DNA from: Deltaproteobacteria bacterium
GTDB lineage: Bacteria > Desulfobacterota > Desulfarculia > Adiutricales > JAGVGV01
NCBI GenBank assembly: GCA_015233515.1
Contig: JADFXS010000228.1
Coordinates: forward strand, 1 to 5,166
Reading direction: 5' to 3'
DNA: 5,166 nucleotides
The position numbers and the translations under genes were made by a program. Positions 3,368 to 5,166 of the stretch are shown piece after piece; the first letter of the stretch is position 1, and each line of letters starts with the position of its first letter. Under the pieces are notes generated by a model, which was not told the origin of the DNA, made no database searches, and worked only from the letters and a program-made list of their open reading frames with translations.

Positions 3368-3427
3368 TTGAGGCCACTCTTGTTTTCCGGTAAAAGGCTC
3401 TTAGCGACTCTAAGTTTTTCGAGGTAA
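3368..3427 (+). CDS. Possible 19-codon leader peptide upstream of the fusion gene
   Basis: A TTG at 3368 follows a strong AGGAGGT (3352-3358) with a nine-base gap and opens a frame of 19 codons, MRPLLFSGKRLLATLSFSR, ending at TAA 3425-3427. The stop overlaps the ribosome-binding site of the fusion gene and lies nine bases before its GTG, in the same frame. It lacks cysteine codons but has five leucines and three serines. The good Shine-Dalgarno with nothing else to serve is the main support. The TTG start and the tiny size keep confidence low. It could be a leader peptide coupled to downstream translation, or chance. Confidence 0.25.
   Translation: MRPLLFSGKRLLATLSFSR
3400..3419 (+). terminator. 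Weak terminator-like stem with T-run in the fusion gene leader
   Basis: CTTAG (3400-3404) and CTAAG (3410-3414) form a 5-bp stem with loop CGACT, directly followed by TTTTT (3415-3419). The order matches an intrinsic terminator or attenuator, but the stem is short and only partly GC. It lies inside the possible leader ORF and 18 bases before the fusion start codon, a position suited to attenuation. Function is inferred and uncertain. Confidence 0.25.
3421..3425 (+). promoter_or_regulatory. Ribosome-binding site of the fusion gene
   Basis: GAGGT lies 11 bases before the GTG at 3437. An in-frame TAA at 3425-3427 rules out any longer N-terminus, and the next in-frame ATG (codon 33) would delete the conserved N-terminal segment LLDLIGGTPLV of the cysteine-synthase fold. 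The GTG is therefore the best start. Confidence 0.6.
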
Positions 3428-3436
3428 AATCCTACT

Positions 3437-5166
3437 GTGACTATCCGCACCGGAAACAATCTCCTGGACTTGATCGGCGGCACTCCCTTAGTGGAAGTCA
3501 AACGCCTGGCCCCTCACTCCAAAGTCAAGATCATGGCCAAGCTGGAATATTTCAATCCGGGCGGCTCGATCAAGGATAGAGTGGCCCAAGCCATGATTGA
3601 AGACGGGGAACGAACCGGCGATCTGACCCCGGGCAAGATCATCATTGAAGCGACCAGCGGCAATACCGGGATCGGTTTGGCTCTGGTCGCCGCGGTCAAG
3701 GGTTACCGACTTCTTTTGACCATGTCCGAATCGGCCAGTATGGAACGCCGACAGATACTGACCGCCTTGGGCGCCGATATCCTTCTGACTTCCGGCCGCC
3801 TCGGCACGGATGGCGCCATCGAGGAAGCCTATCGCCTGGCCCGGGAAAACCCCGATCTCTATTTTCTGCCCGATCAATTCAACAACCCGGCCAACGTGGA
3901 AGCCCATTACCAGGGCACCGGGCTGGAAATATGGGAACAGACCGGAGGCCGGATCGACGTTCTGGTCTCGGCCATGGGCACCACCGGAACCGTCATGGGC
4001 TGTTCCCGTCGACTCAAGGAATTCAACCCGGCCGTTAAAGTCATCGGGGTGGAACCGTATCTGGGTCACAAAATCCAAGGCCTCAAAAACCTCAAGGAAG
4101 CTTATGTTCCCGGGATATTCGAACGCCGGCGGATCGATGAAATCGTCAACATCGATGACGAAGACGCCTATGAAATGGCCCGCCGCCTGGCCCGGGAAGA
4201 AGGTCTCTTCGTGGGCATGAGTTCCGGGGCCGCCATGCATATGGCGGTCGAACAGGCGAAAAAGCTCAAGGAAGGCACGGTGGTGGCCATCCTGCCGGAC
4301 GGCGGCGAGCGCTACCTATCCACCACTCTGTTCGTTCCCAGGGAAAAGACTTCGGTCAAAATTTATAATGTTCTTCCCAAAGCCAAGGAAGAATTCCTGT
4401 CCATCCGTCCCGGTCAGGTCAATATGTATTCCTGCGGACCGGCTCTATATTCCACCAAACAGGTCGCCACCTATCGTCACCTGGTGATGGCGGACCTCCT
4501 GAAGCGTTATTTGCGCCATCGGGGATTCAAGGTTCGACAGATACTCAACCTGGTGGACCTGGACGACCGGACCATAAAAGCTTCCCAGGAAGCCCATCAG
4601 GATATCAAGGCCCTGACCGAGAAATACTTCCAGGAATTTCTGGCGGATTGCGCGGCGTTAAACATCAACCGGGCCGATGAATACCCCCGCGCCAGCGAGC
4701 ATATCCCGGAGATGATCTCTCTGGCCCAAAAACTGGTGGAAAAAGGCGCGGCTTACGAAAAACTCCGTTCACTGTATTTCGATATTTCCCGCTTCAAGGA
4801 ATACGGACGTTTGTCCGGCGTGGATTTGTCCAAGATCCGGGTCGGCAAGACCGTGGACCTGGATGTATATGAAAAAGAAAATCCCAGGGATTTCACCTTG
4901 TTTAAACGATCCACCCTGGCCGAGCTAAAACGGGGTTTGTATTTCAACACCGAATGGGGGGCGGTCCGACCCGGCTGGCACATCCAGTGCGCCGCCCTGG
5001 CCACCAAGTATCTAGGCCAACAATTCGATATCCATACCGGCGGCCGGGATTTGCACTTCCCTCATTTTGAAAACGTTCAAGCCATAGGTCAGGCCGCCCA
5101 TGGCCGCTCCATGGCCAGGTACTGGGTCCACAGCGAACTGGTCTTGGTGGACGGCCAAAAGATGTC
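3437..5166 (+). CDS. Fused cysteine synthase (PLP) and cysteinyl-tRNA-synthetase-like protein, 3' end beyond window
   Basis: Starts at GTG 3437 and stays open for 576 codons to the window edge. Residues 1 to about 302 are an O-acetylserine sulfhydrylase-type PLP enzyme, whose family makes cysteine from O-acetylserine and sulfide. Visible are the PLP lysine Lys46 (NPGGSIKDR), the substrate loop TSGNTG (73-78), the phosphate-binding GTTGT (181-185), SSGAA (262-266) and ERYLSTTLF (291-299). From about residue 306 (SVKIYNVLPKAKEEF) a cysteinyl-tRNA-synthetase-like class I domain follows with almost no linker: Cys333 (MYSCGP), Trp514 and Cys518 (PGWHIQC), His533 and His543 (DIHTGG, FPHFEN), and the final QKMS leading into KMSKS. 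By gapless alignment to E. coli CysRS numbering the HIGH motif is QVAT (342-345), Thr31 is Ala336 and zinc ligand Glu238 is Val547. Arg347 just after the HIGH position is kept. Classical aminoacylation is therefore doubtful; the PLP half looks intact. Anticodon-binding and C-terminal parts are not in the window. The protein is probably cytoplasmic. Confidence 0.93.
   Translation, partial: MTIRTGNNLLDLIGGTPLVEVKRLAPHSKVKIMAKLEYFNPGGSIKDRVAQAMIEDGERTGDLTPGKIIIEATSGNTGIGLALVAAVKGYRLLLTMSESASMERRQILTALGADILLTSGRLGTDGAIEEAYRLARENPDLYFLPDQFNNPANVEAHYQGTGLEIWEQTGGRIDVLVSAMGTTGTVMGCSRRLKEFNPAVKVIGVEPYLGHKIQGLKNLKEAYVPGIFERRRIDEIVNIDDEDAYEMARRLAREEGLFVGMSSGAAMHMAVEQAKKLKEGTVVAILPDGGERYLSTTLFVPREKTSVKIYNVLPKAKEEFLSIRPGQVNMYSCGPALYSTKQVATYRHLVMADLLKRYLRHRGFKVRQILNLVDLDDRTIKASQEAHQDIKALTEKYFQEFLADCAALNINRADEYPRASEHIPEMISLAQKLVEKGAAYEKLRSLYFDISRFKEYGRLSGVDLSKIRVGKTVDLDVYEKENPRDFTLFKRSTLAELKRGLYFNTEWGAVRPGWHIQCAALATKYLGQQFDIHTGGRDLHFPHFENVQAIGQAAHGRSMARYWVHSELVLVDGQKM

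Follow-up and report, generated by a model that had tools for sequence, protein, structure and literature searches.

Towards the 3' end of the window, by which we mean the whole stretch of 5,166 nucleotides analysed here from a Deltaproteobacteria bacterium (contig JADFXS010000228.1), lies a gene that joins a PLP-dependent cysteine synthase to a domain resembling cysteinyl-tRNA synthetase (CysRS). From the GTG at 3437 to the window end it forms a single open frame with zero stops, and its features are collected in Table 1. The PALP part reaches 377 bits against the TIGR01136 cysKM model (cut-off 344), while Pfam tRNA-synt_1e is matched at residues 322-576 of the open reading frame (E 5.5e-75). 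The junction between the two parts comprises a few residues only, because the CysRS homology begins at residue 306-308.

This is the architecture that the first-pass annotation had proposed. The fusion is borne out by both Pfam domains in one frame and by full-length homologues, and the motifs it quoted, as well as the junction of few residues, were found again. Its description of the second part as a CysRS-type domain stands for the motifs but not for their intactness, as the HIGH equivalent reads QVAT and the zinc set is CCHV, with Val as the fourth ligand. A missed stop or a sequencing error at the junction, which it had named as a possible source of an apparent fusion, is ruled out by complete homologues that span both parts, and the fusion stands. 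Among the matches listed, the best is a protein of 779 aa with 81% identity over 99% of the open reading frame; all 120 listed contain both Pfam domains, and 116/120 measure 751-823 aa. The best 80 loci of a contig scan derive from many different assemblies.

Table 1. The fusion gene and its features, numbered from the first nucleotide of the window.
Feature	Position	Strand	Basis or remark
Candidate ribosome-binding site GAGGT, 5' of the GTG start	3421..3425	+	sequence reading
Fusion gene	3437..5166	+	5' 576 codons + 2 bases; 3' end beyond the window
PALP (cysteine synthase) domain, residues 11-288	3467..4300	+	Pfam E 4e-76
PLP-binding Lys46	3572..3574	+	present in 150/150 fusions; role by homology
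TSGNTG, residues 73-78	3653..3670	+	S-G-N-T-G in 150/150; residue 73 T in 129, S in 21
GLKN, residues 215-218	4079..4090	+	K217 and N218 in 150/150
SSGAA, residues 262-266	4220..4234	+	fusion alignment
Junction/linker, residues ~300-306	4334..4354	+	domain bounds; low pLDDT at 303-313 in the P0002 model
CysRS-like domain, residue 306 onward, incomplete	4352..5166	+	Pfam, domain bounds, homology
MYSCGP, first zinc-ligand Cys (E. coli C28)	4424..4441	+	alignment
HIGH equivalent QVAT, residues 342-345, degenerate ATP motif	4460..4471	+	alignment
PGWHIQC, second zinc-ligand Cys (E. coli C209) and Trp205 equivalent	4970..4990	+	alignment
FPHFENV, H234 ligand retained, Glu238 replaced by Val	5057..5077	+	alignment
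Beginning of the KMSKS loop, VDGQKMS	5147..5166	+	window stops inside the motif

Distribution and common descent of the fusion

A contig scan with one genome per species gave at least 595 pattern matches, at least 585 of them coding for a protein related to the query. The best 80 were retained, and their titles name nearly all of them as Desulfobacterota, Thermodesulfobacteriota or deltaproteobacteria, the remainder including 'Proteobacteria'. Among these 80 loci, L053 and L054 come from the cultured Thermodesulfatator autotrophicus and Desulfobulbus rhabdoformis. For a genome-wide view we used 148 genomes of one Desulfobacterota-type phylum (that of G001), requested at 95% completeness, in which the counts of extra copies per genome are lower bounds, at most 10 or 7 candidates being scored in each. 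A profile built from 38 fusions matched across both parts in 65/148 genomes at 874-1312 bits, including one gene whose frame is broken close to its end (G024), and a fragment at a contig end makes G066 the 66th fusion genome. The fusion is frequent in sulfate reducers, where sulfide abounds and where the control of cysteine may differ from that in E. coli.

The alignment holds 153 fusions, or 150 once identical rows are removed. Eight of the 120 listed protein matches were added to it, two loci were omitted as repeats of loci already present (L094, L095), and L164, with its frame broken close to the end, was aligned unaltered in its first part only. Seven of the 150 rows stop short of the anticodon domain, so that residues of that domain are counted on 143 rows. 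The canonical comparison consists of E. coli CysRS and 31 separate CysRS from fusion genomes, after removal of a different paralogue (L090, L091) from 33 rows.

Trees were built from 73 representatives longer than 700 aa and below 72% identity, with the window included though shorter. In the tree of the CysRS half, which includes 16 of the 31 separate CysRS, the fusions fall on one side of a single branch (SH-aLRT 99; 73/95 rows), and they do so again in the tree of the synthase half, in which 37 of the 73 representatives are combined with stand-alone synthases (SH-aLRT 92; 37/63 rows). The CysRS-domain tree has a length of 45 changes per site, and one member, L165, is extremely diverged, with an end branch of 2.68 in the tree with separate CysRS. 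None of the 24 stand-alone synthases sampled from the phylum nests within the fusion clade, and loss of the CysRS half is therefore not seen in this sample. The fusion is real, widespread in its phylum, and forms one clade.

Charging motifs and tRNA-Cys readers in the CysRS half

Among the HIGH positions, H37 is retained in 62, G39 in 76 and H40 in 31 of the 150 fusions, whereas all three are present in 31/31 separate CysRS. The pattern HxG occurs in 57/150 fusions, HxG[HN] in 5/150 and KMS[KR]S in 20/150; HxG and KMS[KR]S are found together in 15/150, and those members might still activate cysteine. Eight near relatives of the window carry KMSRS (5), KMSRR (2) or KMSRT (1) in the KMSKS loop. 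The zinc ligands are better preserved one by one (C28 122/150, C209 130/150, H234 148/149, E238 96/149) than as a complete CCHE set (84/150), and W205 is kept in 145/150. Besides K269, 11 residues shared by all 32 CysRS have given way to others in 98% or more of the fusions, namely F47, I74, R77, E111, R168, W184, P192, G201, G225, Q241 and Y320. In the 73-representative tree of the PALP domain, the minimum numbers of changes are 13 for H37, 16 for G39, 9 for E238 and 5 each for C28 and C209.

The anticodon domain presents a different picture. In E. coli CysRS, Arg427, Asp436 and Trp432 contact G34 of tRNA-Cys and Arg423 does so via water, as stated in the accessible part of PMC12684709 (citing Hauenstein 2004). 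R423, D436, R439 and D451 are found in 143/143 fusion rows covering the region, position 427 is Arg in 137/143 and Lys in 6/143, and position 432 is aromatic in 143/143. The readers show 0 changes on the PALP-domain tree and R427 shows 1; they are retained in 23/23 representatives that have neither HxG, nor KMS[KR]S, nor an intact CCHE set. The window itself ends before the anticodon domain, and its relatives P0002-P0004 (78-81% identical) have the readers.

Measured against 98 canonical-invariant positions, whose mean retention in the fusions is 0.64, the retention of R423, R427 and D436 together is 0.99 (random triples as high, P 0.02), that of the KMSKS positions is 0.36 (as low, P 0.05), that of HIGH is 0.38 (P 0.14) and that of the zinc positions is 0.81 (as low, P 0.79). 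The contrast between readers and motifs is clear, though moderate when each position is judged singly, and its weight comes from the persistence of the readers through repeated losses of the chemistry. As a counterpoint, invariant residues of the anticodon domain might be structural.

Purifying selection acts across the whole protein, as judged from close pairs (25-31 per region) with region dN taken over whole-gene dS. Over 31 pairs, the synthase (PALP) has a median dN/dS of 0.076 and the catalytic part of CysRS one of 0.089. The median is lower in the HIGH region (0.053) and higher in the KMSKS loop (0.119), the C-terminal part (0.186) and the anticodon domain (0.26). Since all parts are under purifying selection, the CysRS half cannot be regarded as junk. 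Taken as a whole, the anticodon domain evolves fastest, which we count partly against the interpretation as a tRNA-binding control domain. Pfam CysS_C, the anticodon domain, is found in P0002, and superposing the P0002 model on tRNA-bound CysRS (1u0b) aligns 445 residues at 3.0 A.

A second CysRS-type gene is present in 66/66 fusion genomes of the 148-genome set, in 61 of them at 513 bits or more (mostly 513-605 bits), and is weaker or partial in G137, G094, G117, G046 and G066. The separate canonical cysS about which the first-pass annotation had asked is thus matched throughout this main set, which consists of other genomes of the phylum. An earlier sample of 15 genomes gave a strong separate CysRS in 13/15; in the other two (G002 and G006, MAGs of unchecked completeness) no CysRS besides the fusion was found. 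A role as sole housekeeping CysRS is ruled out for the main set, while G002 and G006 show the fusion alone. The annotation had also raised the case of a common, already characterised housekeeping CysRS: common the fusion is (66/148), but it stands beside a separate CysRS, and searches of the open-access literature aimed at the fusion gave no account of it.

Family scores give a less discriminating answer. TIGR00435, the cysteine--tRNA ligase model (cut-off 340 bits), is passed by 51/65 fusions, with values such as 362.7 for P0002, 454.8 for L097, 409.3 for L034 and 244.2 for L075; the score is insensitive to motif state and would, taken alone, label most fusions CysRS. By the test of the HIGH motif most members are not functional CysRS, though many pass the family score. 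The source names of the listed relatives are mostly cysteinyl-tRNA synthetase or cysteine--tRNA ligase (cysteine synthase in three), and as statements of function the two tRNA-charging names are probably wrong for most members.

The synthase half and its genomic setting

By its motifs, the fused N-terminal half belongs to the cysteine synthases, with the PLP lysine (K46) and S-G-N-T-G invariant in the 150 fusions. Two of the separate synthases of fusion genomes, L209 and L210, adjoin the outgroup E. coli CysK in the tree, away from the fused domain. Whether fusion genomes also hold a separate cysK, which the first-pass annotation had put as a question, has a divided answer: one or more further TIGR01136 matches occur in 32/66 fusion genomes, and in 34/66 the fusion is the sole match at E<=1e-50 (fusion-only genomes).

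The distribution of serine acetyltransferase (CysE) follows this division. At 140 bits or more, CysE is found in 0/34 fusion-only genomes, in 29/32 genomes with the fusion and another cysKM, and in 70/82 non-fusion genomes, being absent at this line from 12/82 of the latter too; at E<=1e-20 the counts are 1/34, 29/32 and 72/82. The 140-bit line was chosen after inspecting the matches, weaker ones occurring in G053, G134 and G074, and Fisher tests on this distribution are not independent evidence, the genomes being related. The weak match in G053, a fusion-only genome, reaches 116 bits. The three genomes with the fusion and another cysKM but without CysE have an extra match that is below the cut-off (G110), broken (G112) or at a contig end (G154), and in several genomes (G137, G042, G092, G025) the extra cysteine synthase adjoins cysE. 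The fusion also fills a gap, in that 34/148 genomes have the fusion as their sole cysteine-synthase-family match and no CysE at 140 bits.

Other routes to cysteine were considered for the fusion-only genomes. The tRNA-dependent route through SepRS is ruled out, with SepRS in 0/34 of them at E<=1e-10, and a hidden OAH/OAS sulfhydrylase was rejected as a general explanation, being present in only 4/34 and over the cut-off in 2. These two genomes, G053 and G024, are also the only ones without SerA, which is found in 32/34, and may therefore differ from the other fusion-only genomes. Because the fusion-only genomes are without CysE while 32/34 have SerA, we infer that the fused synthase works without CysE and that O-phosphoserine, rather than O-acetylserine, is its most likely substrate. 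In the alignment, K217 falls opposite the first Arg of the E. coli CysM Arg-Arg pair, and in the accessible part of PMC5120207 a Lys replaces, in Thermococcus CysK, the phosphoserine residue Arg297 of the A. pernix enzyme. The comparison with the A. pernix and Thermococcus proteins is by published description. Four stand-alone relatives, three of them from genomes with CysE, have the Lys217 equivalent too, and K217 alone is for this reason not decisive for the substrate.

Gene neighbourhoods give little further indication. Ten representative neighbour proteins of the 30 commonest clusters, judged from their translations, resemble thymidylate kinase, SurE, an HD-domain protein, a DUF721-like protein, glutamine synthetase and others, which vary by lineage; no cysteine operon context and no serine acetyltransferase beside the fusion was recognised among them. 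At 21 loci, ARAGORN placed no tRNA-Cys gene beside the fusion, but it did place a tRNA-Arg directly downstream at 4 loci and, at 1, a tRNA-Pro farther away. Rfam gave no known riboswitch for the window and 6 loci, two tRNAs being the sole matches.

Candidate roles for the fused CysRS-like domain

The reading that we prefer, and to which we give an even chance of being right, is that the protein combines a PLP cysteine synthase with a former CysRS which in most members looks unable to charge tRNA and has been kept as a tRNA-Cys-binding control domain. The CysRS-like domain would bind tRNA-Cys through the anticodon. When cysteine is scarce, uncharged tRNA-Cys would rise and occupy this domain, with the acceptor end entering the old catalytic pocket, itself still under selection, and the state of the bound tRNA-Cys might be relayed to the attached synthase and alter its activity, by analogy with GCN2. 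Activation by uncharged and inhibition by charged tRNA-Cys would both be compatible with the sequence, and in members that retain the zinc site, cysteine bound there could be a second signal. The charging signatures are lost while another CysRS is present (66/66; earlier 13/15), as expected of an aaRS-like regulator. Among the options listed by the first-pass annotation, a tRNA/ATP-sensing cysteine synthase fits best; its tRNA half agrees with the kept readers, and its ATP half does not agree with the lost motifs. If true, cysteine demand would be read at the tRNA and synthesis adjusted within one protein, without transcription. To our knowledge, no other amino-acid biosynthetic enzyme has been shown to be gated by its own cognate tRNA.

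A regulator of another kind would sense free cysteine in the old zinc and amino-acid pocket and feed back on the synthase without tRNA. Although somewhat unlikely in our view, it has a precedent in HisZ (accessible part of PMC9437257), and W205 (145/150), H234 (148/149) and the full zinc set of 84/150 fusions would suit it; yet zinc ligands have been lost repeatedly (at least 5 changes each for C28 and C209, and 9 for E238, a position taken by Val in the window), whereas the G34 readers stay. We consider it less probable that the protein is bifunctional, its CysRS part charging tRNA-Cys with cysteine channelled from the adjoining synthase. Such an enzyme would account for the retained fold and anticodon readers, the 51/65 members over the TIGR00435 cut-off, the purifying selection on the catalytic part, the 15/150 members with HxG and KMS[KR]S and the apparent want of a separate CysRS in G002 and G006 of the earlier sample. 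It is difficult to reconcile with the disappearance of HIGH and KMSKS from most members (HIGH also from the window clade), with the other CysRS in 66/66 main-set genomes, and with the state of K269 and of the 11 canonical-invariant positions, the latter differing in 98% or more of the fusions. Equally improbable is a tRNA-binding domain that serves location or acts on Cys-tRNA (tethering, or trapping of mischarged tRNA) and leaves the synthase unaffected; it would give an identical retention pattern, but by itself leaves the lasting fusion unexplained, with 0 of the 24 sampled stand-alone synthases nesting in the clade.

The remaining explanations appear weaker still. In a tRNA-dependent synthesis of cysteine, which we regard as quite unlikely, the CysRS-like half would grip the anticodon of tRNA-Cys and the PLP half would sulfhydrylate a derivative of serine that the tRNA carries or that is passed on together with it; this variant would amount to a SepRS-independent route to Cys-tRNA, or to a synthase active only with tRNA-Cys bound. 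That the CysRS half is a functionless passenger in decay would agree with the loss of motifs and with the extreme divergence of L165, but a dN/dS of ~0.09 in the catalytic part, the invariant readers and the fact that reversion to a stand-alone synthase is unseen in the tree sample make it very improbable. Least likely of all is a domain that, like MshC, adenylates cysteine and ligates it to a small molecule, giving an unknown thiol. The ATP motifs have decayed, scores against TIGR03447 are 179 (P0002), 211 (L097) and 198 (L034) bits against a cut-off of 485.1, with no listed match for L075, the MshC match stops before the anticodon domain, where the readers persist, and no biosynthetic operon was recognised among the ten neighbour proteins. 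Channelling and an MshC-like adenylating ligase, both offered by the first-pass annotation, would need a HIGH/KMSKS chemistry that is absent in most members, yet 51/65 pass the CysRS cut-off.

Control of cysteine synthesis by tRNA-Cys, if it occurs, would have partial parallels in known systems. GCN2 is likewise an effector enzyme fused to an aaRS-derived domain, and is activated by uncharged tRNA on its HisRS-related domain (PMC4335047, accessible part); retained tRNA binding is the feature proposed for the fusion. It differs in being a eukaryotic protein kinase, acting on eIF2-alpha, whose trigger is starvation for any amino acid (PMC4335047, accessible part), whereas the fusion places a bacterial CysRS-like domain, with specific anticodon readers retained, on the biosynthetic enzyme of the same amino acid. 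HisZ shares with the fusion the character of an adenylation-free aaRS paralogue associated with the pathway that makes its cognate amino acid, but it is described in the accessible part of PMC9437257 as a separate regulatory subunit of HisG that mediates inhibition by histidine; in the fusion the link is covalent, and the tRNA-reading residues are the retained part.

Canonical CysRS (CysS; 1u0b, 8qhp) has the same fold, the G34 readers and the order catalytic, DALR and anticodon-binding, and differs from the fusion, in which HIGH and KMSKS are mostly degenerate, a synthase is attached and a separate CysRS accompanies it in 66/66 genomes. Compared with synthases of the CysM type (E. coli CysM 2bhs; O-phosphoserine-dependent 3dki), the fusion has an extra C-terminal domain of 460 residues. 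MshC and the CysRS* of Desulfobacterales resemble it as CysRS paralogues beyond ordinary cysteine charging, although MshC performs an ATP-dependent ligation and CysRS* charges SelC*, and neither is described as synthase-fused in the accessible part of PMC9437257; PMC2922099, in its accessible part, treats an MtRS paralogue and MshC, not a CysK-CysRS fusion. CysRS* is moreover without an anticodon domain (PMC9437257, accessible part), whereas this domain is present in the fusion P0002.

Serine acetyltransferase and related genes across the phylum

Across the 148 genomes of the set, serine acetyltransferase (CysE) co-occurs with stand-alone cysteine synthases and not with the fusion of cysteine synthase and CysRS-like domain. 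CysE scored at 140 bits or more is also absent from 12 of the 82 non-fusion genomes, so other members of the phylum may likewise make cysteine without CysE. Among the 34 genomes in which the fusion is the only cysteine-synthase-family match, just two, G053 and G024, lack SerA, and the same pair are the only ones with an OAH/OAS sulfhydrylase over the cut-off.

Diverged and truncated CysRS-like proteins

One fusion, L165 (genome G046), is extremely diverged: its CysRS part scores 141 bits, its zinc site reads IIHL, and both HIGH and KMSKS are absent, although the anticodon-reading residues (R, F, D, D) are nonetheless retained. A third CysRS-like protein is encoded at L090 (G011) and L091 (G014), where the CysRS family match ends at model position 405–409 of 466, so that the anticodon domain is absent; motifs of the HIGN/HVGN type and KMSKS are present, and the zinc ligands are altered. 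These two are probably CysRS*, the SelC*-charging paralogue known from Desulfobacterales (PMC9437257).

In the CysRS-type proteins L105 (G059), L106 (G030) and L108 (G094), the NITDV motif is followed by an insert and the KMSKS-type loop reads KMAKS. The three form a branch of their own in the tree, adjoining the stand-alone CysRS; in G094, L108 is the sole separate CysRS found.

Surroundings of the fusion gene

By appearance, the amidohydrolase in the table resembles a D-aminoacylase-type enzyme.

Features accompanying the fusion gene in the window
Feature	Position	Strand	Pfam
Aldo/keto reductase with C-terminal 4Fe-4S domain	47–1069	−	
Amidohydrolase	1338–2993	−	Amidohydro_3

At four other loci (L034, L036, L037 and L054), a tRNA-Arg (TCT) gene lies approximately 40–110 bases downstream of the fusion gene.
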